Source: a virus
Strand: one strand, 5' to 3'
IMG/VR virus record: IMGVR_UViG_3300025133_000189
Location: 1 to 47,500 of that record
DNA length: 47,500 nucleotides
Shown here: positions 31,300 to 44,925 of the stretch, piece by piece
Numbering within the stretch: position 1 is the stretch's first letter
How the letters are laid out: every line of letters starts with the position of its first letter
Notes under the pieces: model-generated
Seen by the model: the letters and a program-made list of their open reading frames with translations, nothing else
What the model was told of the DNA's origin: nothing
Databases searched by the model: none
Position numbers and translations under genes: made by a program

Positions 31300-31601
31300 G
31301 AGTACATTATAAACGTGTGGTGTGTCTAGATGGGTTTAGCATGAGCGTACAAGCAAGTGAATTCACTTATTGTTCGCCGCGCATTGACAACGCTGAAAAA
31401 TACATAGCTGTCGAAGTCGGGTACCCTTCCGAAGAGGAGCCTCTCCTTATGGCATGGGCTGAAGACTGGGACAAACCCACTAACACGGTGTATGGTTGGG
31501 TACCAAGTCATGTCGTTGCCACTGTCTGTGCTAAACATGGTGGGATCGTTGAAGGGAATATCCCACCAGGCGTCCCGTATCTGCCGGCACTGGATTCATA
31601 A
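31296..31601 (+). CDS. hypothetical protein
   Basis: 101 residues from ATG 31296 behind GGGAGAGAGA. It has KYIAVEVGYPSEEEPLLMAWAEDWD and GWVPSHVVATVCAKHGG. Patterns of this kind (VEVGYPS) occur in phage proteins of unknown role. Its stop overlaps the first MKVGDLV gene (TAATG). Confidence 0.6.
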   Translation: MRVHYKRVVCLDGFSMSVQASEFTYCSPRIDNAEKYIAVEVGYPSEEEPLLMAWAEDWDKPTNTVYGWVPSHVVATVCAKHGGIVEGNIPPGVPYLPALDS

Positions 31602-31771
31602 TGAAAGTCGGTGATTTAGTAAAAAGACGTTCCACTGGAAAAGTTGATATTGTGGTAGAGATTGTTCTCGGATTGCGTCCCAGCATCGCCACGAACAGGG
31701 TGCGACTAGCTGGAAATCATCAGCAACTAGTCTACGCTTCAAATTATGAGGTTGTCAGTGAAAGTCGGTGA
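31601..31771 (+). CDS. VGDLV cassette, block 1 unit 1
   Basis: 56 residues, MKVGDLVKRRSTGK to YEVVSESR. The pattern (V-G-D-L-V, charged turn, V-D-I-V-V strand, N-R-V-R-L strand, final Y-E-V) suggests a small SH3/KOW-like barrel. Its final codons carry the ribosome site (GAGGTT), start GTG and overlap for the next unit. Function unknown. Confidence 0.7.
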   Translation: MKVGDLVKRRSTGKVDIVVEIVLGLRPSIATNRVRLAGNHQQLVYASNYEVVSESR

Positions 31772-31841
31772 CTTGGTGAGACTATCTGCCAGTGGCAATC
31801 GAATACAATCAAATCGATTAAAGTATGTTTCAAGGCTATAA
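31758..31841 (+). CDS. VGDLV cassette, truncated unit
   Basis: Starts with GTG in a 14-nt overlap with unit 1; only 27 residues (MKVGDLVRLSASGN...VSRL) before a stop. It lacks the second half of the fold and the junction sequence, so it is probably a decayed copy. Confidence 0.5.
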   Translation: MKVGDLVRLSASGNRIQSNRLKYVSRL

Positions 31842-31874
31842 CATATAATTAGCTAATCCCACCTATGTATATAC

Positions 31875-32042
31875 ATGTGTGTGGGAAGCTTAGTAAAATA
31901 CAAGAATACAGGCTCAAGCTATAGAAAAGGATTGGTACTTGAAGTCAAAGGTAAGAAGTGGGTTAAGGTGCTTTGGACTGCTCAAGAAAAACTTGGTGGA
32001 CTTATTTTTCTAGAACATGTTGAAGATTTAGTTTTCATTTAG
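31875..32042 (+). CDS. VGDLV-like cassette with altered ends
   Basis: 55 residues: MCVGSLVKYKNTGSS, GLVLEVKGKKWVKVLWTAQ, FLEHVEDLVFI. The core pattern is kept (V-G-S-L-V with Ser for Asp; W-V-K-V-L-W strand), but there is no LEVISESR end and no junction. No good ribosome site precedes the ATG, so translation is uncertain. Confidence 0.5.
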   Translation: MCVGSLVKYKNTGSSYRKGLVLEVKGKKWVKVLWTAQEKLGGLIFLEHVEDLVFI

Positions 32043-32045
32043 GGC

Positions 32046-32073
32046 TTGACAAATAAAAAAAATATTATATACT
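32046..32073 (+). promoter_or_regulatory. sigma-70-like promoter
   Basis: TTGACA 32046-32051 and TATACT 32068-32073, spacer 16 bp. Confidence 0.75.
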
Positions 32074-32102
32074 TTAGGGGTGGCTTGGAAAAGGAGAACC
32101 CA

Positions 32103-32594
32103 ATGAAAGTCAATGATATTTTGATGAAGAAATGGTGCTTTGGAATGGGACGAAGCAAAGCACGCAACGAGGCTGCTGTAAACTCTAGTGGTGATCTTGT
32201 TACTTATAAAACTTATCCAAAGTATCGCACCATCGTATTCAAGGTGGACGACGCAAAAAAGGTAGGCGACGACTGGCATGTAACTGGAAGGCAATATGCT
32301 TCTCTGCGATCCGCGCCAAAAAAGAAAACAATGGTACTTACAGAGATGTGTGGCTGCTTTTACAGCGCTGGACAAAAGCGTCCGTTTCTGAAGATGCAAG
32401 ATCCCAACACGCCAACCGATTCTGGTTTGCCGCCTGTTGGTAGTCTGATCTCCGTTAACAAGAAACATGCTATTGTGACTGAGGTTGGTAGGAACTGTCT
32501 GACTGTATACGTCAATGGTGCGCTTCAGACGATCGCGTGTAAGCCTGGAACCGTCAAGTGGTTTTCAGACAAGATTTTGAAGAGTGTTGCATAA
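32103..32594 (+). CDS. two-part protein with VGSLI C-terminal domain
   Basis: 163 residues from ATG 32103 behind AAGGAG. The N-terminal part (MKVNDILMKKW, then VTYKTYPKYRTIVFKVDDAKK) is basic. From about residue 118, PPVGSLISVNKKHAIVTEVGRNCLTVYVNG follows the VGDLV-family layout, ending TVKWFSDKIL. A fusion of a VGDLV-like barrel to another domain could explain it. Unknown function. Confidence 0.6.
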   Translation: MKVNDILMKKWCFGMGRSKARNEAAVNSSGDLVTYKTYPKYRTIVFKVDDAKKVGDDWHVTGRQYASLRSAPKKKTMVLTEMCGCFYSAGQKRPFLKMQDPNTPTDSGLPPVGSLISVNKKHAIVTEVGRNCLTVYVNGALQTIACKPGTVKWFSDKILKSVA

Positions 32595-32597
32595 TCC

Positions 32598-32626
32598 TTG
32601 ACAAATAAAAATAAATTAAATATACT
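32598..32626 (+). promoter_or_regulatory. sigma-70-like promoter
   Basis: TTGACA 32598-32603, 17-bp spacer, TATACT 32621-32626; followed by TGGAGG and the hydrolase ATG. Confidence 0.75.
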
Positions 32627-32644
32627 TATTGTGGAGGTTGAGAA

Positions 32645-33103
32645 ATGAAAAAGATTCTTTTTCTTCACGGCTTGGAGTCTAAGCCGGGTGGTACAAAGCC
32701 TACGTTTCTTGAGAGAAATGGATATGAGGTTATACAACCGCTCTTAGACAAGAATGATTTCCAGGGCAGCGTCAACACTGCGAAACGCTACTATGACGAA
32801 ACAAAGCCTGATGTTATTGTCGGTTCAAGCAGAGGTGGTGCAATTGCCATGGCAATTAAAAGTACTGTGAAAAAGATTTTGATCGCTCCAGCGTGGCGAA
32901 AATATGGGGTACTTCACGATTCTGTGGGTGGGAATGATGTTATTTTGCATGCAAAAGAAGACGCAGTGGTGCCCTACGCAGACAGCGTAGAATTATGGTA
33001 TAACACTTTTGCTTTACTTCAAGAAGTCGGCACCGATCATAGAATGCGCGACGAAGAAACACTGTCAACGCTATTGGATTTAATAAAGGAGGGTATCCAA
33101 TGA
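32645..33103 (+). CDS. small α/β-hydrolase, YqiA/UPF0227-like esterase
   Basis: 152 residues. ILFLHGLESKPGG is the oxyanion-hole strand-turn, VIVGSSRGGAIAM the nucleophile elbow (Ser62), ILHAKEDAVVPYADS the Asp region and GTDHRM the catalytic His. The size and layout fit the YqiA group of acyl esterases. Substrate unknown. Single gene behind its own promoter. Confidence 0.85.
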   Translation: MKKILFLHGLESKPGGTKPTFLERNGYEVIQPLLDKNDFQGSVNTAKRYYDETKPDVIVGSSRGGAIAMAIKSTVKKILIAPAWRKYGVLHDSVGGNDVILHAKEDAVVPYADSVELWYNTFALLQEVGTDHRMRDEETLSTLLDLIKEGIQ

Positions 33104-33121
33104 TTATTATTTAATAATAAT
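33103..33121 (+). repeat. 19-nt AT palindrome overlapping the esterase stop
   Basis: ATTATTATT and AATAATAAT flank a single T. It starts in the stop codon of the esterase gene. It may be an operator or simple AT-rich filler. Confidence 0.4.
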
Positions 33122-33129
33122 GTGTTGTG

Positions 33130-33257
33130 TGGGGAGGTTGGGTATTTATAAATTTGACCTTCAATGATGCTCTTGAAGGGGGCAAGTTCGTACTTGCATT
33201 GAAAAGGCATCTGGGAATGTGGCGCGCCGAGGACAGCGGCACCTCCCCATTTTTTTT
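33130..33257 (+). ncRNA. candidate structured RNA closed by an 8-9 bp stem with U-tract
   Basis: GGGGAGGT (33131-33138) can pair with ACCTCCCC (33241-33248), followed by eight T. Inside, four local hairpins can form: CCTTCAA/TTGAAGG (33158-33179), GCAAGT-TCGT-ACTTGC (33182-33197), GCAT/ATGT (33207-33220) and GCCG/CGGC (33226-33240). The whole gives a multi-branched RNA ending in an intrinsic-terminator-like U-tract. The frame through it lacks a ribosome site. No family is recognised and no clear promoter was found. Confidence 0.5.
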
Positions 33258-33285
33258 ATTTTTTTTACGTATTGGAGGGTGTGTG

Positions 33286-33357
33286 ATGACTATCACATGT
33301 AGTTGGTTTGAGTTTTTAGTGCTGGTGATGTTGGCTTACTGCTGTTTTCGCCGCTAA
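33286..33357 (+). CDS. tiny membrane peptide
   Basis: 23 residues from ATG behind GGAGGG: a Cys/Trp N-terminus, then FEFLVLVMLAYCCF and a basic Arg-Arg end. One membrane span with positive tail. It follows the structured RNA and precedes poly-T tracts. Moderate support from the ribosome site. Confidence 0.45.
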   Translation: MTITCSWFEFLVLVMLAYCCFRR

Positions 33358-33429
33358 TTTTTTCATTTTTTTTACGTTATGGGCGCACACGTACATGGTT
33401 TTTTTTACTTTTTTTACTTTTTTTACCTC
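33358..33429 (+). other. poly-T tract region
   Basis: After the tiny gene come runs of 6 to 8 T separated by AC or CA, repeating a unit near CTTTTTTTA. Similar runs lie at 33250-33266. No gene is seen. They could act as multiple termination or bent-DNA signals before the promoter at 33430. Confidence 0.6.
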
Positions 33430-33458
33430 TTGACAAACAAAAAAGAATAAAAGATAAT
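33430..33458 (+). promoter_or_regulatory. sigma-70-like promoter
   Basis: TTGACA 33430-33435, 17-bp spacer, GATAAT 33453-33458; GGAG lies just before the next ATG. Confidence 0.7.
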
Positions 33459-33487
33459 ATTCATAGAACGATTGGGAAGGAGACAAG

Positions 33488-33652
33488 ATGAGCAAACAAC
33501 AACTTTATAAGATTATTCGTTTTTTTCGACAAAGAGAACACGTCAACAGGATCATCAAAAGGAATCTTACGCTCGACGAAGCTCAAGCTCATTGTAGAAA
33601 CCCCTTGACTCAGAAAGAGGGCGAATGGTTTGATGGCTACGAAGCGCAATAA
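33488..33652 (+). CDS. small phage protein with LTLDEAQAHC...WFDGY pattern
   Basis: 54 residues behind AAGGAGA. KIIRFFRQ, RIIKRNLTLDEAQAHCRNP and EWFDGY match a short family I recall from many phages and cyanobacteria, about 50-60 residues, of unknown function. The next gene starts 2 nt after its stop. Confidence 0.65.
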   Translation: MSKQQLYKIIRFFRQREHVNRIIKRNLTLDEAQAHCRNPLTQKEGEWFDGYEAQ

Positions 33653-33653
33653 G

Positions 33654-33827
33654 ATGCAAGTCGGTGACTTGGTAAAAACAACGTGTTTTGGTGCCAAGGG
33701 TGAAGTTGGAGAGGTTGGTATCATTGTCGCTGATCACAAGTTTAATCGTTGTTTTCAAGTCCTGCTCGGAAAAAAAGTTTTTGTCATGAATCAAGATGGC
33801 TTGGAGGTAATCAGTGAAAGTCGGTGA
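33654..33827 (+). CDS. VGDLV cassette, block 1
   Basis: 57 residues: MQVGDLVKTTC, EVGIIVADHKFNRCFQVLLGKKVFVM, DGLEVISESR. ATG 33654 aligns with the starts of the other units; an ATG 21 nt upstream (inside the previous gene) is also in frame. The end TTGGAGGTA codes L-E-V and provides the ribosome site of the next unit. Confidence 0.65.
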   Translation: MQVGDLVKTTCFGAKGEVGEVGIIVADHKFNRCFQVLLGKKVFVMNQDGLEVISESR

Positions 33828-33996
33828 CTTAGTGAGATACAGATATCGAAAACAGGATATTGGAATTATAATCGAAACTATGCTAACGGGAACGGCGATA
33901 GGTGATCCTTCTCTAAAATACAAGGTGATGTGGACGGACACTCACACCGACTGGATGAGAGCATCGGGATTGGAGGTAGTCAGTGAAAGTCGGTGA
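33814..33996 (+). CDS. VGDLV cassette, block 1
   Basis: 60 residues from GTG in a 14-nt overlap with the previous unit. MKVGDLVRYRYRKQ, DIGIIIETM, YKVMWTDTHTDWMRASGLEVVSESR. It shows the full core: G-I-I-I strand, Y-K-V-M-W strand, a Trp, and the L-E-V end. Confidence 0.75.
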   Translation: MKVGDLVRYRYRKQDIGIIIETMLTGTAIGDPSLKYKVMWTDTHTDWMRASGLEVVSESR

Positions 33997-34081
33997 ATTG
34001 TATCGGTGTTCGTTTCGTTCTGGCTCGCACCGCGCTCTCCGAGATGCTGCCATTGACAACTTCAAAACTGAAGGTTGTTAG
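33983..34081 (+). CDS. VGDLV cassette, truncated last unit of block 1
   Basis: 32 residues from GTG in a 14-nt overlap. It opens MKVGELYRCSFRSG and stops early, without the barrel's second half. Probably a broken copy or recombination relic. The repeated promoter R1 begins 20 nt later. Confidence 0.45.
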   Translation: MKVGELYRCSFRSGSHRALRDAAIDNFKTEGC

Positions 34082-34100
34082 CCACATATGGCACCACATG

Positions 34101-34180
34101 AAAAAAAAACTTCAAAAAAACGACATGGGGGGGGTTGACAAAAGCCGATTCGCTCCTATATTTACTAGTGAACGGTTGAG
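34101..34180 (+). promoter_or_regulatory. repeated promoter element R1
   Basis: Shared layout with five other copies: an A-run, ACTTCAAAAAAACGACAT, a G- or C-run, TTGACA (34135-34140), 16-bp spacer, TATATT (34157-34162), then TACTAGTGA and GGTTGAGGA. This copy has the most changes in the spacer. Confidence 0.8.
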
Positions 34181-34190
34181 GAGAAACAAC

Positions 34191-34886
34191 ATGGAATTGG
34201 TAGCAAGGATCGAGAAAGCACTGGCTGATGGCGGCGAGCGTTTGTCTCAGTGGGAGCAGGGTTTCCTTGAAAGCCTCAAAGATCAGGCGAAGCGACGTGG
34301 ACGTTTGAGCCACAAACAGATCGAGATTCTTGGACGAGTCGAGGCACAGAAGTGCAGCGCTGAAGCCCAGGTGCAAGCCGATGCTTGGCACGCATCCTAC
34401 AACGATGAGAAACGAGCCATCGCAGTGACTGCTGCGAAGTACTACATGGCGAACCCGCCTTACTTTGAGGGAATAGCAGGCAAAATTCTCAATGATCCTG
34501 ACTACATCCCAAGCGAGAAGGCATATCGCAAGATGTGCGAGAACAAGTATGTGAAACGAGTGCTGGTTGAGGTGGCGAAGGCTCCCGTGTTTGCTGTTGG
34601 TGACATGGTTGCGCTGCGAAGCGGCAATTTCTCAATGACGGTGCGCCATGACATGCGAGATCTCGCGCGGGCTGTTGACAAGAATCAAGGCGAGATTGCC
34701 TTGCTTGTTCTGTCAGTGAACACGGAGTCGGTGACGTCCGCAGTCAAGGGTGCGAAGGAGTACACCGTCTTGCCCGTTGGCTTGAGTACGACGTTCACTT
34801 TCGAGGAACGGCACCTCAAGAAGCGCAAGAAGTCCAAGAAAACTGCAATGAAACCTAACACTTGTGAAGAGGCTATTCTTTTCTAA
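34191..34886 (+). CDS. hypothetical protein with VGDMV segment
   Basis: 231 residues from ATG 34191 behind GAGGAG. Helical N-terminus: RLSQWEQGFLESLKDQAKRRGRLSHKQIEILGRVEAQ, a pattern I recall in small phage and plasmid proteins of unknown function. Near residue 138 PVFAVGDMVALRSGNF resembles the VGDLV opening. The tail is Lys-rich (KKRKKSKKTA). Higher G+C and Gly/Ala/Arg use than its AT-rich neighbours. Confidence 0.6.
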   Translation: MELVARIEKALADGGERLSQWEQGFLESLKDQAKRRGRLSHKQIEILGRVEAQKCSAEAQVQADAWHASYNDEKRAIAVTAAKYYMANPPYFEGIAGKILNDPDYIPSEKAYRKMCENKYVKRVLVEVAKAPVFAVGDMVALRSGNFSMTVRHDMRDLARAVDKNQGEIALLVLSVNTESVTSAVKGAKEYTVLPVGLSTTFTFEERHLKKRKKSKKTAMKPNTCEEAILF

Positions 34887-34964
34887 AAAAAACTTCAAAA
34901 AAACGACATGGAGGGGGTTGACAAACGCCGAAAAGTTCCTATATTTACTAGTGAGGGGTTGAGG
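34886..34964 (+). promoter_or_regulatory. repeated promoter element R2
   Basis: AACTTCAAAAAAACGACAT, G-run, TTGACA 34918-34923, 16-bp spacer ending AAAGTTCC, TATATT 34940-34945, then TACTAGTGAGGGGTTGAGGA. Drives the two-knuckle gene. Confidence 0.9.
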
Positions 34965-34983
34965 AAAAAGGAGAAAAAACCCA

Positions 34984-35685
34984 ATGTCATGGAACAGAAC
35001 AGTCACTTGCAGCTATTGCTACAAACCTGGACACAACAAAGCTGGATGCGTGAAATTGAAGGATTACATTGCTGCGAATCCCGATAGTTATCGCGCTCGG
35101 CTTGCGGCAAACAAGAAAACGCGAAAGCGCAAGTGCAGCTACTGCGAGCAGACTGGACACAATCGCAAAACATGCGCCCAACTTCGCGAAAATTGCGAGA
35201 TTGCCGGCAAGCGGAACAAGGAATTCCGAGCCGCTTTATTGGAGCATTTCAAAACCCTCGGCATCGGCATCGGCACGTTGGCATGCTGGGGGCGTCATGA
35301 CTTTGCACTGGAGCGAGATCGCGGCATGGTGAATCAGATACAGTGGGAAAGACTCAATGTATGGACTGTCGTTAATCGTGGTTATTATGGATTGCGCTCA
35401 ATTGGTGTCGTCACGTTCCCACGCATGGCATCGCACGGGTTCCAGTCACGTCCGTCCAATTGGTTGGCAGTGCCGGTTTCCGATAACTTTTTCGGAGAGC
35501 CGAATCTTTGTTGCGAATATGGCAAGGGCATCGTCGACAATTCAGAATGGATCCTGAGCGCTTTGACGCCGGAAGACGTAGAAAAGGGTGTCCCGTCGGG
35601 TTGGCTTGAAGGAGACGACAGTGCGCTCGGAGAACACTTCAACAAGGACTCGAACCACCTTTCTCACACGTGGGTGCAGAGGTAA
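34984..35685 (+). CDS. double zinc-knuckle (CCHC) protein
   Basis: 233 residues behind GGAG. Two CCHC knuckles: Cys9/Cys12/His17/Cys22 and Cys51/Cys54/His59/Cys64, joined by a basic linker (ANKKTRKRKC). The knuckles end GHNKAGC and GHNRKTC, nearly the same as the knuckle of the 18854 product (GHNKASC). The C-terminal 150 residues (WGRHDFALERDRGMV, VVNRGYYGLRSIGVV, EWILSALTPEDVEKG) are unassigned. Probable single-stranded DNA or RNA binding. Confidence 0.7.
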   Translation: MSWNRTVTCSYCYKPGHNKAGCVKLKDYIAANPDSYRARLAANKKTRKRKCSYCEQTGHNRKTCAQLRENCEIAGKRNKEFRAALLEHFKTLGIGIGTLACWGRHDFALERDRGMVNQIQWERLNVWTVVNRGYYGLRSIGVVTFPRMASHGFQSRPSNWLAVPVSDNFFGEPNLCCEYGKGIVDNSEWILSALTPEDVEKGVPSGWLEGDDSALGEHFNKDSNHLSHTWVQR

Positions 35686-35713
35686 TTGAAAGGTACCACA
35701 TATGGCAATGGTG

Positions 35714-35792
35714 GAAAAAAACTTCAAAAAAACGACATTCTACCCCTTGACAAACGCCGAAAAGTTCCTATATTTACTAGTGAAGGGTTGAG
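35714..35792 (+). promoter_or_regulatory. repeated promoter element R3
   Basis: ACTTCAAAAAAACGACAT, then CTACCCC, TTGACA 35747-35752, 16-bp spacer, TATATT 35769-35774 and TACTAGTGAAGGGTTGAG. Drives the MoxR-type gene. Confidence 0.9.
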
Positions 35793-35812
35793 AACAAAGG
35801 AGAACAAACCCA

Positions 35813-36892
35813 ATGGCAATTGACTTCAAAAGCTTTCTTGAGTGCGCGCCACTCGTTCTTGCCACCCGCAAGCCTGTCATGATCCGTGGACGTCACGGTG
35901 TTGGCAAGTCGGAGGTGATATATCAGATCGCTGAGCAGATGGGCTTGCCCGTCGTTGAGCGACGGGCATCTCAGATGACTGAGGGGGATCTCCTTGGCAT
36001 GCCTTCGCCTGAACAGATCGAGGTGAATGGCGAGATGGCTTCTCACTTCTGCCCCTTCGCATGGTTCATTCGAGCCTGCACTGAGCCTGTTTTGCTCTTT
36101 CTTGACGAGGTGGATCGAGCCACCCAAGAAGTTCGCCAGGGTATTTTTGAGTTGAACGACTCGCGGAAGCTGGCTGGTTGGACGCTCCACCCTGACACCA
36201 TCGTCGTCGCAGCCGTCAACGGTGGCGATCATGGCGATCAATATCAGGTGAACGAGCTTGATCCCGCCGAGTTGGATCGGTACGTTGTCTTCGACGTCGA
36301 GCCTTCCGTTGAGGACTGGCTCACTTGGGGAAAAACCAAAGTTGACGGACTCATCTGGGACTTCATTAATCAAAACCGGGCTCACCTTGAGCACAACGGG
36401 GACTACGAGCCGAACAAGGTATACCCCAGCCGTCGATCCTGGGATCGGTTGAACAAGTGCTTGGTTGGCGCATCGATGTTGGAGGAGTCCAGTCCGGTGC
36501 TTTTCAACCTTTCGGCTGCATACGTTGGCTTCGAAGCGGCAGTATCCTTCAACGACTTTGTGAAGAACTACGAACGACAAGTGACTGTCGAGGACGTCCT
36601 TGACGAGGGCAAGATCGAGAAGACTGCCGACTTCGACATTAGCGATCACTGCGCTATGATTGAAAAGATGGTAGCGAAAAATACCTTCGACAAAGTGCTG
36701 GCTGAAGCGCAGCTTGTCAATCTGGCTGAGTACTTCGTTTCGCTTCCGAGCGAGGCTGCAATGAAGCTTTGGGAAGCGGTTGGCGCGCCGGATGTCGAGG
36801 AAAACGTTCGCGAATTCCATACCACCGCGACAAACAGCGGAAAGACGGTTGCCAGTCACCTCGTGGAGATTTTCACCGGCAAGGCTTCGTAA
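35813..36892 (+). CDS. MoxR-type AAA+ ATPase
   Basis: 359 residues behind AAGGAG. Walker A GRHGVGKS (residues 26-33), Walker B VLLFLDEVDRA (about 93-103), the sensor NGG, and the arginine-finger region AELDRYVVFDV. MoxR ATPases remodel protein complexes and usually work with a VWA-domain partner encoded next door, as is the case here. It has high G+C and tidy codon use compared with most of the window. Good length for the family with a C-terminal helical lid. Confidence 0.9.
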   Translation: MAIDFKSFLECAPLVLATRKPVMIRGRHGVGKSEVIYQIAEQMGLPVVERRASQMTEGDLLGMPSPEQIEVNGEMASHFCPFAWFIRACTEPVLLFLDEVDRATQEVRQGIFELNDSRKLAGWTLHPDTIVVAAVNGGDHGDQYQVNELDPAELDRYVVFDVEPSVEDWLTWGKTKVDGLIWDFINQNRAHLEHNGDYEPNKVYPSRRSWDRLNKCLVGASMLEESSPVLFNLSAAYVGFEAAVSFNDFVKNYERQVTVEDVLDEGKIEKTADFDISDHCAMIEKMVAKNTFDKVLAEAQLVNLAEYFVSLPSEAAMKLWEAVGAPDVEENVREFHTTATNSGKTVASHLVEIFTGKAS

Positions 36893-36909
36893 TCGTTGAG
36901 TAAAGAAGG

Positions 36910-36992
36910 GGGGCAAAAAAAGTTGAAAAAAACGACATTGCCCCCCTTGACAAACACTGAAAAGTTCCTATATTTACTAGTGAGGGGTTGAG
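36910..36992 (+). promoter_or_regulatory. repeated promoter element R4
   Basis: AGTTGAAAAAAACGACAT, a C-run, TTGACA 36947-36952, 16-bp spacer, TATATT 36969-36974, then TACTAGTGAGGGGTTGAGGA. Drives the metallopeptidase-VWA gene. Confidence 0.9.
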
Positions 36993-37017
36993 GAAAACTT
37001 TGAGCGAGGACAAAAAC

Positions 37018-38289
37018 ATGGACACCGAATTTAACTTGAATATGCACGTGGCACGGCTTCTAATGAAGGAGCCGTTCTTTGCCAGTCTGAGTCGCAACGT
37101 GTCCAAGACTGCCTCGACTGCTATCGCCACCGCTGGTGTGCGTGTCAATCCTGACACCGCCCGTTTCGAGATGATATACAACCCTGGTTTCTTTGCCGGA
37201 TTGTCAGACGTTCAGCGGCTCGGCGTTTTGAAGCATGAATTCTATCACCTGATCTTTGAACACGTTACCAGTCGTCGCCCCGATGGCTCTGGCGAGAAGT
37301 TCAACGAATGGGCACGTGCAAACCCTGCAAGGGCTCGCATGTGGAACTTTGCCACCGATCTCGCGATCAACTCGCACCTTCACGGTGAATTGCCGGCAGG
37401 GTGTCTAATGCCTGGTGAGGGCATGTTCGCTGAGTTTCCCACGGGATTGTCTGCTGAAGCTTACTTCGCGCTGTTGCAGGAGAAACAGGACGAGGGCAAA
37501 GACGAGACAGAGGAGAATGGCGAGGGCAATTGCAAGGGGGAAGGTGAGCCTGGAAACGATCCCGGTGACGGTGAAGGCTCCGGTGGTGGCGACGGACAGT
37601 TCGACAGTCACGAAGGCTGGGGCGACGTCGATGCCACCTCGAATGAGATTGCCAAAGAGCGACTGAAAGAGGTATTGAAGAAGGCAACGGAAGATGCCGC
37701 CAAGGGCAATGGTTGGGGTAGCGTACCCGGTGAAGTTCGAAAGGATATTGCGGCTCGATTGACAACGCATGTGGATTGGAAGAAAGTTTTGCGCTACTTC
37801 GTCAAGACTAGCACCCGTGCCAACAAGCGCTCCACTGTGAAGCGTGTCAACAAGCGATATCGCTACATCCACCCAGGTAAGAAGGTTACTCGCCAGGCTC
37901 GCATTGCGATCAGCATTGATCAGTCTGGCTCTGTTGACGATGCCATGTTGGAGACGTTCTTTTCTGAGTTGAACAAGCTTGCCAAGCTGGCTTCGTTCAC
38001 TGTGATCCCTTTCGACACCAGGGTGGACGACTCGCTTGTCTACGAATGGAAGAAGGGACAGAACCACAAGACTCAGCGCGTCATGTGCGGTGGTACGGAC
38101 TTCAATCCTCCCACTGAATACGTGAACAAGCATGGATTCGACGGACACATCGTCTTGACGGATCTCATGGCACCCAAGCCCAAAGCTTCGAAGTGCCAGC
38201 GCATGTGGATGACTACGAAGTACTACGCGCAGCGTCCCTACTTCAAGACGAACGAACGCATTCTAGCAGTGGATGTGAAAGAGGGCTAA
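37018..38289 (+). CDS. metallopeptidase-VWA protein (DUF2201-like)
   Basis: 423 residues from ATG 37018 (GCGAGGA ribosome site). N-terminal half: VLKHEFYHLIFEHV holds HExxH (His73, Glu74, His77). An acidic Gly/Glu-rich linker follows. C-terminal half is a VWA-like domain: ISIDQSGSVDD is the MIDAS motif (DxSxS), with CGGTDF and LTDLMAP behind it. Paired with the MoxR ATPase it resembles the MoxR-VWA and RavA-ViaA type of partnership. Phages rarely carry such a pair as I know. Confidence 0.85.
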   Translation: MDTEFNLNMHVARLLMKEPFFASLSRNVSKTASTAIATAGVRVNPDTARFEMIYNPGFFAGLSDVQRLGVLKHEFYHLIFEHVTSRRPDGSGEKFNEWARANPARARMWNFATDLAINSHLHGELPAGCLMPGEGMFAEFPTGLSAEAYFALLQEKQDEGKDETEENGEGNCKGEGEPGNDPGDGEGSGGGDGQFDSHEGWGDVDATSNEIAKERLKEVLKKATEDAAKGNGWGSVPGEVRKDIAARLTTHVDWKKVLRYFVKTSTRANKRSTVKRVNKRYRYIHPGKKVTRQARIAISIDQSGSVDDAMLETFFSELNKLAKLASFTVIPFDTRVDDSLVYEWKKGQNHKTQRVMCGGTDFNPPTEYVNKHGFDGHIVLTDLMAPKPKASKCQRMWMTTKYYAQRPYFKTNERILAVDVKEG

Positions 38290-38299
38290 TTAATAATAC

Positions 38300-38324
38300 T
38301 TTGAGCCACATGTTGTGGCTCAAA
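38300..38324 (+). promoter_or_regulatory. 11-bp perfect hairpin between genes
   Basis: TTTGAGCCACA and TGTGGCTCAAA flank a TGT loop. No T-run follows, so it is more likely an mRNA-stability or processing hairpin than a terminator; the next gene's GGAGAG site lies 15 nt downstream. Confidence 0.55.
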
Positions 38325-38352
38325 CTTATCTTTTGAAGGAGAGAGAAAGAAA

Positions 38353-38616
38353 ATGACAACCAACGTGATTGATTTTACTGAGTATTCGAACCGTTCTGCC
38401 ATCGAGGATCTGATCTACGAAGCAGAGGAGAGTGGCGACGACAGCGCTGTTGAGACAGGGCTGGTGCTGCTCGCGATGTATAAAGAGGGTTTCCTCTTTG
38501 TAACCTACGATGAAGAAGGCGAACCCCTGTTCGAACTGAGAGGGGACGTTTCAGAGGAAGATCTTCAGGCGGCAGAAGAAAGCTTCGCCGCCATGGACTA
38601 CGAGGAGATGCTGTAA
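38353..38616 (+). CDS. small acidic protein
   Basis: 87 residues behind AAGGAGAG. Very acidic (SAIEDLIYEAEESGDDSAVE, then EEGEPLFELRGDVSEEDLQAAEE), with a hydrophobic GLVLLAMYKEGFLFV stretch. DNA-mimic proteins have this kind of charge, but no motif is definite. No family known to me. Confidence 0.55.
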   Translation: MTTNVIDFTEYSNRSAIEDLIYEAEESGDDSAVETGLVLLAMYKEGFLFVTYDEEGEPLFELRGDVSEEDLQAAEESFAAMDYEEML

Positions 38617-38617
38617 G

Positions 38618-39157
38618 ATGACGAACACAACAATTGACACCAACGTGACGCTAGACTGCATGCCTGAACAAGTGTTGACAGTTTTGACTGAGAGCGAGCC
38701 GGGTATCACCGCGAACAAAGAGGAGGAGGCGCAGGACAAGCCGGCACCCGTGGATATTCCTGACGAGGATCGACGTCGCATGATTGAGGAGTTTATTGCT
38801 GCTCGCCAAGCACGTGTCGACGCCGGGCTAGAGGAGCCACAGGTGCTTCGTACAACCGTCAAGCCTCTACCAAGCCGCTGGGGCTCGTCCAGACGCTCAG
38901 AAGACAGAAAGGGACGTCCTAGAAAGGTGTTTGATCGTTCTGTGACGATGTTGAAGCTGGGCGACGGTACCTACTGCCGCGCAGGACGCGGACGTCCCAA
39001 GGAAGGGCAGGAGCGCGTCAAGATGACGGTTGCTTGGGACTTCAGGGTGGACTCTGGTGTATCCTATAGGCTTTTGGACTCCAAGGCAGCAGTCAACAAG
39101 CTGGAGCGCATCGAAGACGACAAAGAAACTTCAAAAAAACGACATGAGGGGGGTTGA
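38618..39157 (+). CDS. hypothetical protein with two AT-hook-like motifs
   Basis: 179 residues starting 1 nt after the previous stop. An acidic first third (to about residue 60) is followed by DRKGRPRKVFDRS and AGRGRPKEGQER, each with the G-R-P core of AT-hooks that bind A+T-rich minor groove. This may be a DNA-binding protein. The promoter element R5 begins inside its last 12 codons. Confidence 0.5.
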   Translation: MTNTTIDTNVTLDCMPEQVLTVLTESEPGITANKEEEAQDKPAPVDIPDEDRRRMIEEFIAARQARVDAGLEEPQVLRTTVKPLPSRWGSSRRSEDRKGRPRKVFDRSVTMLKLGDGTYCRAGRGRPKEGQERVKMTVAWDFRVDSGVSYRLLDSKAAVNKLERIEDDKETSKKRHEGG

Positions 39158-39204
39158 CAAACGCCGAAAAGTTCCTATATTTACTAGTGAGGGGTTGAGG
39201 AAGA
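39120..39204 (+). promoter_or_regulatory. repeated promoter element R5
   Basis: AACTTCAAAAAAACGACAT, a G-run, TTGACA 39154-39159, 16-bp spacer, TATATT 39176-39181, then TACTAGTGAGGGGTTGAGGA. Its upstream half lies in the preceding coding sequence (KKRHEGG). Confidence 0.9.
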
Positions 39205-39253
39205 CTCTTCAGAAACGGATCCCGAAAGGGGAACAACACGAGCAAGGACAGAT

Positions 39254-39466
39254 ATGATGAAAGATTGGCAAAAGGACATGGACAAGCTGGCTGCGCGGAC
39301 AACCAAGAACTGGTGGAAGACTGGCAATTGCGCTCGTCCATTGGGCGTCACCGGCAGCTTCAGCTTGGCTCCCAGGGCAGCTGCCGATGATGCAATGTTG
39401 GAAGCAATCGTCACCGAGATGGATGTGGTGCACCCTGTCTTGCCGCTCACAGTGGAGGGCAAATGA
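39254..39466 (+). CDS. hypothetical small protein
   Basis: 70 residues, ATG 39254 (or ATG 39257) after a weak AAGGA site. KDWQKDMDKLAARTTKNWWKTGN, then an Ala-rich AAADDAMLEAIVTEMD. Unknown. Its stop overlaps the next start by ATGA. Confidence 0.5.
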   Translation: MMKDWQKDMDKLAARTTKNWWKTGNCARPLGVTGSFSLAPRAAADDAMLEAIVTEMDVVHPVLPLTVEGK

Positions 39467-39732
39467 GCACCCACGATGTCTATTGTCTTTGTGACGAGTG
39501 CATGGCAGCCAAAGCCGACAAAGACAAAGCGAATTCATCAGTGAAAGTCGGTGATGTTGTGATATTTGTTGACGAGGGCAGGTATTCTAAATGGTTCTGG
39601 GGGAAAGTTGCAAAGGTTGTAGCTATCAACGCAGGATTCTGTCAGGTGCGATGGCTCCAGAAGGTACAATATCACGACTTGTACCCAACAGTTTCTAACT
39701 TTAACGTCGACAGATTCGAGGTATTGAGATGA
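39463..39732 (+). CDS. Cys-rich leader fused to a VGDLV cassette
   Basis: 89 residues from ATG 39463 (ATGA overlap). Residues 1-26 are Cys/Asp/Lys-rich (YCLCDECM), then the array junction codons run straight on: ATCAGTGAAAGTCGGTGATG reads SSVKVGDVV in frame. The barrel continues (SKWFWGKVAKVV, FCQVRW) to FEVLR. A second start at GTG 39541 would give a plain MKVGDVV unit. A likely fusion of a short upstream gene to an array unit. Confidence 0.6.
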   Translation: MSTHDVYCLCDECMAAKADKDKANSSVKVGDVVIFVDEGRYSKWFWGKVAKVVAINAGFCQVRWLQKVQYHDLYPTVSNFNVDRFEVLR

Positions 39733-39917
39733 ACGAATCTTGGTTTCATGTGGGGGAACTGGTACGCCTTGACAGGCGCCGTCTTGTCCGCGGCGGTTCA
39801 ATGCCACTAGTGGTACTGATGGAACGACAGGCTAGCGGCTTGCTTTGGCTAGCGCTGTTCCCTGATGGCGTTGTTTATCAGGTTGGTACAGAATCCTTGA
39901 GCAAGGTTCACCGATGA
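39729..39917 (+). CDS. VGELV-type small protein
   Basis: 62 residues; ATG in the stop region of the previous gene. MNESWFHVGELVRLDRRR, then LVVLMERQASGLLWLALF, GVVYQVG. VGELV with a six-residue extension. No SESR end. It abuts the next unit by ATGA. Confidence 0.55.
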   Translation: MNESWFHVGELVRLDRRRLVRGGSMPLVVLMERQASGLLWLALFPDGVVYQVGTESLSKVHR

Positions 39918-40081
39918 AAGTTGGTGATCTGTTGAGAAAGCGGAGCACTGGCAAGCTGTGCGTATACGCAGAGGAAGTAGAAGAAAAGTACGGCAACGGT
40001 TGGATCAAAGTACTCATCGATGGTAAACTTTCGAAATGGGTTCCAACACAAGACTACGAGGTAGTAAATGAAAGTCGGTGA
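39914..40081 (+). CDS. VGDLV cassette, block 2
   Basis: 55 residues: MKVGDLLRKRSTGKL, GWIKVLIDGKLSKWVPTQDYEVVNESR. Starts at ATG overlapping the previous stop; ends in a 14-nt overlap with the next unit. STGK near residue 11 is shared with the 31601 unit. Confidence 0.75.
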   Translation: MKVGDLLRKRSTGKLCVYAEEVEEKYGNGWIKVLIDGKLSKWVPTQDYEVVNESR

Positions 40082-40238
40082 TTTGGTGAAATATGAAAGC
40101 TTGAACCAGTCCCGTCCGTATATCGGGATCGTTGTTGGTTTTGACAAGGATCGTGATCCGATAATCAGAGATATCAGATCTGGGGTTACAGCTGCCAATT
40201 GGAGAAACAGGGTGGAGGTAATCAGTGCAAGTCGGTGA
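40068..40238 (+). CDS. VGDLV cassette, block 2
   Basis: 56 residues. ATG start in a 14-nt overlap. MKVGDLVKYESLNQSRPYIGIVVGFDKD, then a basic RNRVEVISASR end. The G-I-V-V strand and V-E-V end fit the shared fold. Confidence 0.75.
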   Translation: MKVGDLVKYESLNQSRPYIGIVVGFDKDRDPIIRDIRSGVTAANWRNRVEVISASR

Positions 40239-40395
40239 TTTGGTTCGACACAGAGATAGCCAGTGGAAGGACTGGTATGGTGTTATTGTTCGTCAAATTC
40301 CAGGCACCGATCAGAGACAAGTTGTTTACTGGGCACGAGGAATCTCGTGTTCATACCCGAAACGCCAACTACAGGTGATTAATGAAAGTCGGTGA
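40225..40395 (+). CDS. VGDLV cassette, block 2
   Basis: 56 residues from GTG in a 14-nt overlap. MQVGDLVRHRDSQWKDWYGVIVRQ, RQVVYWARG, LQVINESR. The middle differs from its neighbours almost completely. Confidence 0.75.
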   Translation: MQVGDLVRHRDSQWKDWYGVIVRQIPGTDQRQVVYWARGISCSYPKRQLQVINESR

Positions 40396-40564
40396 TTTAG
40401 TGAAAAAAGTCTTCGGAAGAACGGATCTCTACATGATAGGAATTATTATTGACGCCACCGAAAACCCCGAAGAGGGTTTCCGTCGCAAAGTAACAGTTGC
40501 GACTGAAAAAGGTCACCGCAAGTGGATGACAAATTCCTTGGAGGTAATCAGTGAAAGTCGGTGA
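40382..40564 (+). CDS. VGDLV cassette, block 2
   Basis: 60 residues from ATG, 14-nt overlap. MKVGDLVKKVFGRTD, IGIIIDATENPEEG, RKVTVATEKGHRKWMTNSLEVISESR. Strong example of the core pattern. Confidence 0.8.
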   Translation: MKVGDLVKKVFGRTDLYMIGIIIDATENPEEGFRRKVTVATEKGHRKWMTNSLEVISESR

Positions 40565-40730
40565 TTTGGTTGAAAGGACATACGGAGAAGGGCAACGCCC
40601 AAGAGCACTGTTTATCGGTTGGTACTTGCCAAACATTTACAGCAACGCGGCACTAGTGATATGGCAAGGTGCTAGCAAACCCACACAATTTAACTCGGAA
40701 CACTTAGAGGTAATCAGTGAAAGTCGGTGA
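40551..40730 (+). CDS. VGDLV cassette, block 2
   Basis: 59 residues from GTG, 14-nt overlap. MKVGDLVERTYGEGQRP, ALFIGWYLPN, ALVIWQGASKP, EHLEVISESR. Confidence 0.75.
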   Translation: MKVGDLVERTYGEGQRPRALFIGWYLPNIYSNAALVIWQGASKPTQFNSEHLEVISESR

Positions 40731-40875
40731 TCTGGTATGCATCAAGGGTGAGCGAGAAGTGATGCTAGTAACGGCAGATTTGAGCGATATATCTGATCAA
40801 GTAATGGTACTACGCAACGGTCGTTTTCAATACCTCCGAAAATCGCAATTAGAGGTAATCAGTGAAAGTCGGTGA
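40717..40875 (+). CDS. VGDLV cassette, block 2
   Basis: 52 residues, the shortest complete unit. MKVGDLVCIKGEREVMLVTA, QVMVLRNGRFQYLRKSQLEVISESR. Confidence 0.75.
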   Translation: MKVGDLVCIKGEREVMLVTADLSDISDQVMVLRNGRFQYLRKSQLEVISESR

Positions 40876-41071
40876 TTTGGTAAGAGACAAGTACTGGAGC
40901 GAACAACGCCCGCCACGGACACCACCGATCCTTGGCGTTATAGTTCGTATTCCATCACCGTTAAGGGCAGGCGGCACAACGAAGGATATCGTTGAAGTTT
41001 TAGTATTTGGCGGGACGAAGCTTCGCTCGTTCCTGATGTCGAGTCTGGAGGTTGTCAGTGAAAGTAGGTGA
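40862..41071 (+). CDS. VGDLV cassette, block 2
   Basis: 69 residues; a Pro-rich insertion (RPPRTPPILG) in the first loop and a longer RAGGTTKDIVEV strand. LEVVSESR end with the usual 14-nt overlap to the next unit. Confidence 0.75.
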   Translation: MKVGDLVRDKYWSEQRPPRTPPILGVIVRIPSPLRAGGTTKDIVEVLVFGGTKLRSFLMSSLEVVSESR

Positions 41072-41291
41072 TCTAGTAAGAAGTAGCGATCCCTATTGGA
41101 CTGGCAGGGGTATCATTGTCGAGTATCACGAAGAAAGGTTGGGCGAGGATCTGAATATAAGAGAATATAAGGTGCAATGGTATAGCACCCCGCTATTGTC
41201 GAACAGGTGGTCGACATCCTGGGCAATGGAGAACGGGATCACAGTGATCAGCAGCGCAGAAGAAAACAATTGCGAGGACATAAAAGAATAA
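41058..41291 (+). CDS. VGDLV cassette, last unit of block 2
   Basis: 77 residues from GTG 41058, 14-nt overlap. MKVGDLVRSSDPYWTGRGIIVEYHEER, REYKVQWYSTP, then a different C-terminus (GITVISSAEENNCEDIKE) without a junction, so the array ends here. The longest unit. Confidence 0.7.
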   Translation: MKVGDLVRSSDPYWTGRGIIVEYHEERLGEDLNIREYKVQWYSTPLLSNRWSTSWAMENGITVISSAEENNCEDIKE

Positions 41292-41590: not shown

Positions 41591-41866
41591 ATGGTGGGGT
41601 ATTGTGACAAGAAGTATAATGTTGAGCGATGTGCTGGGGTTATAATGTACGAAGGATTGGGGCTAGGAGTACTGCTATTAAATACATACATTATAGCACT
41701 TTGTCAAGCGTACCAAGTTGGCACACACATAGCATTAGCAAGCAGTATGCCATTCACGCTAGGTGCGAGGGCAATAAAAAAAACACACATCAGGTACGAT
41801 TACCCCTTGACAAACAATAAAAAGTTCCTATATTTACTAGTAGGAGGTAGGACATGTCTTGGATAG
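41591..41866 (+). CDS. doubtful open frame ahead of promoter R6
   Basis: The frame (91 residues from ATG 41591) holds LGLGVLLLNTYIIALCQAYQVG, but its second half runs straight through the promoter element R6 and the start of the next gene, and there is no good ribosome site. It may be coding only in part or not at all. Confidence 0.2.
   Translation: MVGYCDKKYNVERCAGVIMYEGLGLGVLLLNTYIIALCQAYQVGTHIALASSMPFTLGARAIKKTHIRYDYPLTNNKKFLYLLVGGRTCLG
41800..41852 (+). promoter_or_regulatory. repeated promoter element R6 (shortened)
   Basis: TTACCCC, TTGACA 41807-41812, 16-bp spacer ending AAAGTTCC, TATATT 41829-41834, TACTAGT. The upstream ACTTCAAAAAAACGACAT box is replaced by other A-rich sequence, and a GGAGG ribosome site replaces the GGTTGAGGA leader. 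Confidence 0.85.
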
Positions 41867-42606: not shown

Positions 42607-43059
42607 ATGAAACTAACTAAAACGCAACTTAAGCGCTTAATCAAAGAAGAGCTGCAAGCTATCTTATCAGAAGTCGTCACACCAACATTACCATATGACA
42701 AATCTCCGCTTATAGGCGCAGATGGCAGCTTTGGATCGCGACAGCTGGATATGTTTCGGGATCCGCGAGTAGAAGATATCGATTCATACTCAAAGGAGCG
42801 TTATCAAGCGTGGCTAGATCATGGCTTAAATCCGGAAATAAGTATATACGACGCGATAGAAGGACACGATAAGGCGGCGCAATGGTGGAATGTCAAAATG
42901 CAGGGACGTCGTTTCCCTGATCAGGCTAGCCACGACGAGGCTAAAGCCACATTTATTGCAGACTGGATGAACAAACGCCTTGTTAGTAATGCCGCGCGTC
43001 GCGAAGAAGATGAACGTGCTTATGAAGCCGAAAGGGATCCCTCATATGAAGCTTACTAA
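42607..43059 (+). CDS. MKLTK-leader protein 1 (candidate internal head protein)
   Basis: 150 residues behind AGGAGGAG. Leader MKLTKTQLKRLIKEEL, then QAILSE followed by Val: an I/L-x-E candidate cleavage point at residue 22. The rest (SYSKERYQAWLDHGLNPEISIYDAIEGHDKAAQWWN, basic and acidic helices) has no known motif. Compare the T4 capsid-targeting peptides; that link is inference. Confidence 0.55.
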   Translation: MKLTKTQLKRLIKEELQAILSEVVTPTLPYDKSPLIGADGSFGSRQLDMFRDPRVEDIDSYSKERYQAWLDHGLNPEISIYDAIEGHDKAAQWWNVKMQGRRFPDQASHDEAKATFIADWMNKRLVSNAARREEDERAYEAERDPSYEAY

Positions 43060-43483
43060 ATCACAACTAAAACAACTTATCAAAGAAGAGCTGCAAATTA
43101 TCTTGAATGAATCATTCAAAAGAGAGTGGGAGCGAATGCAAATGGACCAGGGCGCGCCGCATTCGCCGCCTGGGACACAATTGCAATTGGACTACGAGCC
43201 TGAAACAACAGCTTCCCACGACGCCATCGATGCATTTAATTATTACGTTGAATATAAAGATTTACATTATCTGAGGGACGAGGAGAGAGTTATTCAATTT
43301 ATAAAATACCATAGAAAATATTTAAGCGATCTCCCTGCAATTGCTCACCATTATGGTTTGCATAAAGAGGATATCCTCGACGTCATCGGCAATAAGAGGG
43401 GTAGATTTTATGCTGCCGTGGAAGCAGCTTTGGGCGATTACAAGCTTAATTTAGACGAGCCTTTCTTACATCACAAACACTAG
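43046..43483 (+). CDS. MKLTK-leader protein 2
   Basis: 145 residues, start inside the previous gene (14-nt overlap). Leader to IILNE followed by Ser (residue 22). Body: ATASHDAIDAFNYYVEYKDLHYLRDEER then IIGNKRG, helical. Unknown. Confidence 0.55.
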   Translation: MKLTKSQLKQLIKEELQIILNESFKREWERMQMDQGAPHSPPGTQLQLDYEPETTASHDAIDAFNYYVEYKDLHYLRDEERVIQFIKYHRKYLSDLPAIAHHYGLHKEDILDVIGNKRGRFYAAVEAALGDYKLNLDEPFLHHKH

Positions 43484-43547
43484 TTTAAAAAGGAGCCAAC
43501 TAGATGAAATTAACAAAATCACAACTAAAACAACTAATCAAAGAAGA
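43479..43547 (+). repeat. 69-nt direct repeat, copy 1
   Basis: Identical to 43814-43882. It covers the ribosome site and the first 15 codons of the next gene, including CTAGTT and AACTAG arms around AAGGAG. Confidence 0.95.
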
Positions 43548-43797
43548 GCTAGTACAGCTAGTACAGTTAAAAGAAGACGATGGTGGGCGGCAAGAAGCCG
43601 CACAGTGGATCGGCAATTGGGCCGAGGAGAAGAAGGCATGCCTTGCCGGATCGGACGAGGAAACAGCTCAAATTAAGAGGTCCACGGGCGCAATTGGTTT
43701 GGATCCAGCCTTCTTGCAAAAAATTTGGAAGCTAAGTGGCGATCTTAACGATCTGTATAGTCGACTCGCGCAGGCCGCTGCGCAGCGCGCGCAGTAA
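43504..43797 (+). CDS. MKLTK-leader protein 3
   Basis: 97 residues. Leader, then VQLVQLKE followed by Asp (residue 24). Body: RQEAAQWIGNWAEEKKACLAG, LQKIWKLSGDLNDLYSRLAQAAAQ, an Ala/Gln-rich helical protein. Its ribosome site sits in a hairpin loop between CTAGTT and AACTAG. Confidence 0.55.
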   Translation: MKLTKSQLKQLIKEELVQLVQLKEDDGGRQEAAQWIGNWAEEKKACLAGSDEETAQIKRSTGAIGLDPAFLQKIWKLSGDLNDLYSRLAQAAAQRAQ

Positions 43798-43813
43798 TCA
43801 GATATCATTCTTA

Positions 43814-43882
43814 ACTAGTTTAAAAAGGAGCCAACTAGATGAAATTAACAAAATCACAACTAAAACAACTAATCAAAGAAGA
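43814..43882 (+). repeat. 69-nt direct repeat, copy 2
   Basis: Identical to 43479-43547, so a recent duplication or gene conversion between neighbouring leader genes. Confidence 0.95.
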
Positions 43883-44213
43883 ATTGTCTATAATGACAGA
43901 AGGGGGAGGACGTCCTTATGATCCAACAGTGCCTGGAGATTGGCAGCGTCAGCAGGCAATGATATCGGGCGAATACCCTGAACCGCCCGATGATCCGGCA
44001 GCTAGAGTGGCAGCTGCCATTGGCATATCTCTTGACGAACTGACAGCTACTTTAGAAGCAGAAGGTTTAGCAATTGTAACAGCCGAAGAAGCTGCGCCAG
44101 AAATGTCACCCGATCAAGAAGAAGACCTCAAATTAGCCACCAAGCGTGATTATTGGACGCGCGGATCTGAATTACCTGGCCGAGCGGGGCTGCCTCGGGG
44201 CTATGAATCTTAA
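43839..44213 (+). CDS. MKLTK-leader protein 4
   Basis: 124 residues. The first 15 codons are identical to those of the previous gene. The leader is followed by SIMTEG (M-x-E before Gly, residue 21). The body has ARVAAAIGISLDELTATLEAEGLAIV and an acidic TAEEAAPEMSPDQEEDLKLATKRDYW. Unknown. Confidence 0.55.
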   Translation: MKLTKSQLKQLIKEELSIMTEGGGRPYDPTVPGDWQRQQAMISGEYPEPPDDPAARVAAAIGISLDELTATLEAEGLAIVTAEEAAPEMSPDQEEDLKLATKRDYWTRGSELPGRAGLPRGYES

Positions 44214-44226
44214 AGGAGCTAACTAG

Positions 44227-44595
44227 ATGAAACTAACCAAATCCAAACTAAAACAACTTATCAAAGAAGAACTAAACCACATTAAAGAGGGTGATCACCT
44301 TGACCATCGGGGGGACCCATGGATCTCCCCAGAGGATATGGACGAACTTGTGGGTACGAAAGGCGGGCCGAGCGCGTGGGCGAAGGCCGGCGCTGCCAGA
44401 CGCGCCAGAGAGGCCGCTGCCAGAACACCAGAAGTTTCTAAAAAACAAGCCACTGCAAACAAAATTAATCTTATGTACGGCGACTTAAGAGATCTTGAGC
44501 CGATGTTCAAAAAAAACCCAGATATCCGGAAGTCGTATGATAGCGCTTTATCCGCAATTAATGATTTAAATAACAAACTCGCAGGGAGTCGCTAA
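44227..44595 (+). CDS. MKLTK-leader protein 5
   Basis: 122 residues behind AAAGGAG. Leader to NHIKEG (I-x-E before Gly, residue 21). Body: Ala-rich WAKAGAARRAREAAAR, then NKINLMYGDLRDLEP and a helical end. Unknown. Confidence 0.55.
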   Translation: MKLTKSKLKQLIKEELNHIKEGDHLDHRGDPWISPEDMDELVGTKGGPSAWAKAGAARRAREAAARTPEVSKKQATANKINLMYGDLRDLEPMFKKNPDIRKSYDSALSAINDLNNKLAGSR

Positions 44596-44639
44596 TGAAA
44601 CTAACTAAACCAAGAGGCGACGGGGGCCTGGGAACGTAA
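44595..44639 (+). pseudogene. relic of an MKLTK-leader gene
   Basis: ATG overlaps the previous stop; MKLTKPRGDGGLGT then stop (14 residues). The first five codons match the family, after which it is lost. Likely leftover of a deleted copy. Confidence 0.45.
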
Positions 44640-44681
44640 TATTATTTCCTTAATATAATCCTTCCTTAATCTACTTACCAT

Positions 44682-44888
44682 ATGTCAATCCGCTATGATA
44701 TAGGTGATTTGGTTTATCTAGATGACGTTAATATAACAGGTGTAATTATCGATAAAATAGTGTTTGGCAACGAACTGGTTGATGGATTAGTGGATGTAGA
44801 AGTACAATGGACTAATGGTACTAACTATTGGTGCCTGGCAGAGGGATTAACGATCGTCTCAAAGGCTAATGTTAAAAAGAATTTATAA
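44682..44888 (+). CDS. VGDLV-like small protein (stand-alone)
   Basis: 68 residues: YDIGDLVYLDDVNITGVIIDKIVFGN, DVEVQWTNGTNYWCLAEGLTIVSKAN. I-G-D-L-V, G-V-I-I, V-E-V-Q-W and the final L-T-I-V-S keep the family's layout outside the arrays. No ribosome site seen. Confidence 0.6.
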   Translation: MSIRYDIGDLVYLDDVNITGVIIDKIVFGNELVDGLVDVEVQWTNGTNYWCLAEGLTIVSKANVKKNL

Positions 44889-44925
44889 AAAAAATTTTCG
44901 ATACTTAAAATCTTTTGCGCCGCGA

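Follow-up and report, generated by a model that had tools for sequence, protein, structure and literature searches.

Accessory genes of T4-like phages are known to be rearranged at short repeated sequences. In the hyperplastic regions of these genomes, short repeated linkers termed PeSLs, intergenic elements combining a promoter with a stem-loop, are reported to shuffle single accessory genes by homologous recombination (Arbiol et al., 2010; Comeau et al., 2014; PMC4503421). T4 itself is reported to amplify and delete such genes by recombining at short homologies (2-10 bp; PMC9391042), and in the T4-related Campylobacter phages CP21 and CP220 modules are rearranged at repeats (PMC4546147). Here we analyzed a stretch of 47,500 nucleotides (nt) of viral DNA, positions 1-47,500 of the IMG/VR record IMGVR_UViG_3300025133_000189 (referred to as the window), which carries arrays of very small genes with a VGDLV motif at the start of their products, joined to one another through overlaps of exactly 14 nt. 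We consider it likely that the genes of these VGDLV arrays are cassettes that recombine within the accessory region of a large group of uncultured T4-like phages, shuffled by homologous recombination at a connector embedded in the coding sequence. This reading draws on the architecture and spread of the arrays, on the gain, loss and reordering of single cassettes, on exchange between phages, on purifying selection and on the use of the same format by an unrelated gene.

The arrays share with PeSLs the shuffling of genes at short linkers in T4-like hyperplastic regions, but the linker here lies within two overlapping reading frames, where it provides the ribosome site as well as the start and the stop. 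In contrast to PeSLs, the junctions have no conserved hairpin and no promoter, promoters being found in a separate intergenic repeat. Like integrons, they are one-orientation arrays of interchangeable small genes with repeated boundaries and a shared pool. Unlike integrons, they lack an IntI-type tyrosine recombinase (PF00589 in none of 25 carrier records, namely 24 large contigs and the window), an attC-like imperfect inverted repeat (there are 5-nt arms only, without covariation) and an intergenic site, the boundaries being coding and the carriers T4-like. The repeats of CP21 and CP220 are mostly extragenic and 1-2.9 kb long and delimit modules of 28-55 kb (PMC4546147), whereas the connector here is coding, about 25-30 nt long, and joins single-gene cassettes of 150-230 nt. 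In T4, short direct repeats likewise alter the content of accessory and counter-defence genes, but these homologies are incidental and case-specific (PMC9391042), while here one standard connector is common to hundreds of genes in many different phages. What would be new is the coding-embedded standard connector; the shuffling of T4-like accessory genes at short linkers was already known from PeSLs. A literature search of partial coverage, which is weak evidence, returned no overlapping-frame linker that provides ribosome site, start and stop, no VGDLV in connection with phages and no MKVGDLV.

The ten junctions named in the initial annotation all overlap by exactly 14 nt when the ends and starts of the open reading frames are compared (31758-31771, 33814-33827, 33983-33996, 40068-40081, 40225-40238, 40382-40395, 40551-40564, 40717-40730, 40862-40875 and 41058-41071). 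Their description as successive holds for the overlap at each of them but not for their arrangement, as they form three clusters of one, two and seven junctions (31601-31841, 33654-34081 and 39914-41291) rather than a single run. The sequence GTGAAAGTCGGTGA is letter-perfect in six of the ten, and the window contains 20 matches to it at up to three mismatches, compared with 3.5 (standard deviation 1.8) by chance.

Every cassette opens with A/GTGAAAGTCGGTGAY (MKVGD), and its last codons are (G)GAGGTNATC, after which comes the start of the next cassette. At 40541..40570 (plus strand), for example, GAGGTAATCA with the ribosome site in its E-V-I codons is followed by GTGAAAGTCGGTGA, which holds the start as well as the TGA stop of the upstream frame, and by TTTGGT. 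MKVGD is encoded as ATG/GTG-AAA-GTC-GGT-GAY, in which the TGA within GGT-GAY is the first stop of one other frame and lies exactly 14 nt after the start, and the upstream frame reads across the junction as AGT-GAA-AGT-CGG-TGA, that is S-E-S-R-stop. The SESR tail is therefore the neighbor's start read in another frame and not a protein motif in itself, and its first residue is S where the neighbor starts with GTG and N where it starts with ATG. In a set of 1,825 units from 226 loci, compiled from viral contigs, a few contigs of metagenome-assembled genomes (MAGs) and the window, a start codon stands at exactly -14 in 977 of 979 ESR-type tails, with GCG in the two exceptions, as expected from the earlier proposal that the S-E-S-R-stop codons contain the start of the next gene. 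The companion proposal, that the final E-V codons double as a ribosome site, likewise holds up: the E codon of E-V before the junction is GAG in 410 cases and GAA in 9, against 1,167 GAG and 1,369 GAA in unit middles, a bias that argues for real ribosome sites, and GGAGG occupies positions -11 to -7 before the start. The remaining reading frame would yield a 4-nt overlap, yet only 84 such junctions occur compared with 1,039 of 14 nt (all other overlaps and gaps together account for 115), which suggests that a single connector was inherited from a common ancestor or has spread. Across the 226 loci, 72% of the isoleucine codons at junctions are ATC, with the wobble C at position -2, compared with 32% in the middles; this excess would be explained by homogenization through exchange and also by a DNA signal. 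An inverted repeat or hairpin at the junction was rejected, as the 5-nt arms AATCA/TGATT show no covariation over 938 junctions.

A 24-base pattern matched at least 118 IMG/VR stretches and three further patterns added others. The carriers are uncultured T4-like phages, mostly of marine type, that together form a large group, with the arrays in the accessory (hyperplastic) region. The Gp23 major capsid protein was found above the Pfam cut-off in all 24 large carriers, as was a UvsX/RecA-type protein in the same 24; the 47.5 kb window, which does not include the Gp23 part of the genome, has no UvsX/RecA-type protein either. DnaE of the window has a counterpart in all 25 records, at 59-75% identity in the group with genomes of 180-205 kb and at 38-40% in three larger genomes, and by this measure the large carriers belong to the lineage of the window. 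The carriers pair T4-like Gp23 and UvsX with this DnaE-type polymerase (bacterial Pol III alpha; 1,141 amino acids (aa), 10176-13598 in the window). Each genome holds 7-30 units, always on one strand (20 fetched regions and the window), and hardly any units recur from one genome to another, although for the most part the DnaE of these genomes shares 59-75% identity with that of the window. A tblastn search of INPHARED with two units gave no match in any cultured phage, and a short blastn match in Kuttervirus was dismissed as chance because it runs antisense to annotated genes. Nine matches lie in unrelated MAGs and are most likely misbinned phage contigs, so that host assignment from them was dropped and no host is claimed. 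In one carrier, a 293 kb contig (G017, contig of L136), two adjoining genes at 176509-180120 match Gp23 and might encode one capsid and one vertex protein.

The mobility of single units is best seen between near-identical phages. In six cases, two phages differ by one unit within shared flanking DNA of 97-99.7% identity, and the junction supplies direct repeats of 20, 27, 34, 17, 16 and 18 nt at these differences. In two of the phage pairs (L014/L015 and L082/L085) the extra unit is joined rightward by a 4-nt overlap, and the phage without it has a 14-nt junction; the junction format restores itself when the unit is absent. Between L059 and L113, with flanks of 99.2% identity, shared units are reordered and others replaced. 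Both number and order of the units hence vary among close relatives, where fixed number and order would have spoken against the cassette proposal. Exchange between more distant phages is seen in 65 unit pairs with 78-100% identity of the core DNA and both neighbors in different clusters; for nearly all of these neighbors identity is about 0.5, no higher than between unrelated sequences, and one of the pairs (L054/L167) is 100% identical. For 144 of 170 distinct homology breakpoints (102 of 138 in an earlier version of the count), a unit start is no more than 30 nt away in each of the two sequences, whereas 32% of array positions qualify. Single-unit gain and loss, exchange and breakpoints at the junction all agree with the units being self-contained cassettes, as the initial annotation had supposed. 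It had further supposed that units duplicate or recombine at the junction, and here recombination is borne out, but duplication as the main source is not: pairs of at least 85% DNA identity within a locus number only 2 among the 1,825 units, and pairs of at least 60% aa identity within a genome 5 among 293. Recent copies within a genome being this rare, the arrays bring together different cassettes rather than new duplicates, and exchange between phages dominates over duplication as the source of units.

The format also accommodates an unrelated gene. In L032 and L056 an internal cassette with the MKVGD start, the ESR tail and 14-nt junctions on both sides encodes a membrane protein that matches DUF2061 at E 9.5e-8, above the Pfam cut-off, and in some arrays non-barrel proteins follow the last junction, such as a 39-aa membrane peptide (L030) and a Cys-rich protein (L087). 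Although nearly all cassettes encode barrels, the format is thus portable beyond this family. The barrel assignment itself, an SH3/KOW-type fold in the earlier proposal, is supported by structure prediction. AlphaFold2 models two units of the window with confidence as all-beta barrels, five-stranded for the 60-aa unit at 40382..40564 (predicted local distance difference test score, pLDDT, 91.6) and with a pLDDT of 89.8 for the 69-aa unit at 40862..41071, modeled solely to check for the same fold in a longer unit. Foldseek places the predicted fold close to the KOW domains of ribosomal protein S4 and NusG/Spt5 and to OapB, PetP and NdhS at template modeling (TM) scores of 0.6-0.8 (best E 0.006, TMq about 0.76). 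While they resemble these small barrels in fold, the window units belong to no significant Pfam or PHROG family: searches of Pfam (KOW and other curated SH3 families) and PHROG gave nothing above cut-off (best PHROG E 0.0011), and the closest PDB sequence match, at E 0.011, is below significance.

Homologous cassettes show a pooled ratio of nonsynonymous to synonymous polymorphism (pN/pS) of 0.19 and a median ratio of the corresponding substitution rates (dN/dS) of 0.13, with 1.5% of pairs above 1. This purifying selection argues for real proteins and against the notion of a rapidly diversifying barrel surface; with no excess of amino acid change, positive selection and a diversity-generating or hypervariable system were rejected. 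The related description of fixed ends and strongly differing middles is correct as far as the difference goes, yet the middles are not hypervariable and differ because different units are old, separate and individually constrained lineages.

Each cassette carries the ribosome site for its follower and the stop for its predecessor, so that cassettes are read correctly in any order. In the mechanism we favor, translation along the array would be coupled, and exchange would proceed through the phages' own T4-type homologous recombination (UvsX/RecA, tolerant of very short homology) on the 16-34 nt of shared connector, for which no site-specific recombinase would be needed. Since T4 is reported to recombine at 2-10 bp (PMC9391042), repeats of this length provide ample homology. 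A dedicated site-specific system, with an undescribed recombinase or homing-type nuclease cutting at the junction in an integron-like manner, would likewise produce exact cassette boundaries, conservation of DNA at position -2 beyond coding needs and exchange across divergent phages. However, neither tyrosine nor serine recombinases were detected in the 25 carriers in a search that covered just these two Pfam families (PF00589 was found in 14 of 14 control genomes), and they were rejected as the engine; moreover, the junction is not an inverted repeat, the repeats at the indels vary in length as homology would give, and every large carrier has UvsX/RecA, so that we regard such a system as unlikely. 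Less likely again is that an ancestral pair with a 14-nt overlap was repeatedly copied in place and drifted, the junction being inherited without shuffling. Such tandem duplication would fit a start motif common to all units, a fold common to nearly all, and the preponderance of the 14-nt form, suggestive of a single ancestral junction because a 4-nt form is just as possible, but it is difficult to reconcile with the near-absence of recent tandem copies, the 65 similar pairs with unrelated neighbors in other phages, the one-unit gains and losses and changed order between near-identical genomes and the DUF2061 gene in cassette form. It is largely refuted as the main process, though it may still explain the deep origin of the arrays.

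SH3-like proteins often assemble with partners, and coupled small barrels on the same strand might accordingly encode the subunits of a hetero-oligomeric complex in ratios fixed by the coupling; we consider this very improbable, as the number and identity of the units vary freely, even between near-identical phages, and a membrane protein is found among them. Still more remote is a programmed +1 frameshift at the overlap that would yield multi-barrel fusions. The next unit does lie in the +1 frame at every junction, but GGAGG at -11 to -7 has normal initiation spacing and precedes the TGA by more than the known RF2-type +1 shift would allow, and every downstream unit has a proper start codon (427 GTG, 204 ATG and one TTG, n=632). 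Several points also weigh against homologous recombination at a coding-embedded connector: the production of the small proteins and their coupled translation are deduced from sequence, the conservation of the junction beyond ribosome site and start could be a DNA signal for an undescribed enzyme, breakpoints at gene borders are also expected if selection removes broken genes, and clean unrelated genes in cassette form are few, with one internal and several terminal. For the stronger proposition of a recombinase-free cassette system, in which the connector, with its ribosome site, start and stop packed into about 25 nt, has become a common standard by spreading through the accessory genomes of a phage group and any small gene, whether or not it encodes an SH3 barrel, may be captured, exchanged between phages and expressed at any array position, we put the chances at slightly below even.

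Array regions contain 93 sigma-70-like promoters in sense orientation compared with 9 in antisense, where 10 are expected, and this sense excess suggests early expression of the array genes by host RNA polymerase. Promoters as a fixed feature of array heads were rejected, since they are dense in the region and not fixed at the heads, and no promoter-like site was found at the window junctions. An 81-nt intergenic repeat with a sigma-70-like promoter (TTGACA-16-TATATT) lies upstream of the main array (39122..39202, plus strand). Four further copies of it stand at 34103-34183, 34886-34966, 35715-35795 and 36915-36995, and a partial sixth at 41803-41848; runs of G or C flank the promoter and change sides between copies. 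The repeat may be a PeSL-like mobile promoter between single accessory genes. Accessory genes of T4-like phages that are small, early, non-syntenic and individually constrained typically serve host takeover or counter-defence (T4 examples in PMC9391042), and the small barrels could be factors of this kind, a role we judge to be about as probable as its contrary. They would then act early as non-essential host-interaction factors, kept as a shared and shuffled pool.

If the recombinase-free reading is true, the arrays represent a mobile gene format of a new kind that is neither integron nor PeSL. How phages swap single accessory genes unbroken is an old question, and here the exchange point itself would make any product translatable. 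The connector further serves as a search key for a large pool of uncharacterized small phage proteins (the 1,825 units of the sampled loci), among which factors for host takeover or counter-defence may well be sought. It also offers a model, open to direct testing, of how cassettes could be captured with no recombinase, and nature's own design for genes that can be stacked.

Within the window, all units lie on the plus strand. The first cluster consists of a cassette for a 56-aa SH3-like unit (31601..31771, MKVGDLVKRRS...EVVSESR), which shares its 14-nt overlap with the open reading frame starting at 31758, a truncated remnant of 27 aa (31758..31841); a lone VGxLV-type unit, assigned by sequence only (MCVGSLVKYKNTG..., 31875..32042), comes after it. 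The second cluster comprises a 57-aa cassette (33654..33827), resembling the unit that is 100% identical at the DNA level in L054/L167, where its neighbors are unrelated, a 60-aa cassette (33814..33996) and a truncated remnant of 32 aa (33983..34081). Upstream of the main array, the units at 39463 and 39729 are joined through 4-nt overlaps. The former (39463..39732) is a fused gene with a Cys-containing N-terminus and an in-frame unit, connected by the junction-like TCATCAGTGAAAGTCGGTGA (39535-39554); the copy of GTGAAAGTCGGTGA at 39541 is in frame within it, and the gene has the look of a fusion, made at a junction, between a unit and a different gene. The latter (39729..39917) is a VGELV-type unit with a 4-nt overlap on each side. 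The main array then runs through cassettes of 55 aa (39914..40081), 56 aa (40068..40238), 56 aa (40225..40395), the first modeled barrel, 59 aa (40551..40730), 52 aa (40717..40875) and the second modeled barrel to its last unit of 77 aa (41058..41291), which starts with GTG at 41058 and has its own C-terminus without the ESR tail.

Between two of the VGDLV islands, at 35813-38289, the window encodes a MoxR-like AAA ATPase and, next to it, a DUF2201 metallopeptidase/VWA-like protein. A protein with two CCHC/C2H2-like zinc knuckles (zf-C2H2_10) and a long uncharacterized C-terminal part is encoded at 34984-35682. Judged by a look at the sequence, glutamine synthetase, GroEL, IMP dehydrogenase and a ClpP-like protein are encoded at 19255-20298, 24931-26499, 15477-16517 and 18121-18789, respectively. 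Downstream of the main array, a second series of genes (42607-47301), all starting with MKLTKSQLKQLIKEEL and then diverging, forms another array with a shared N-terminus.

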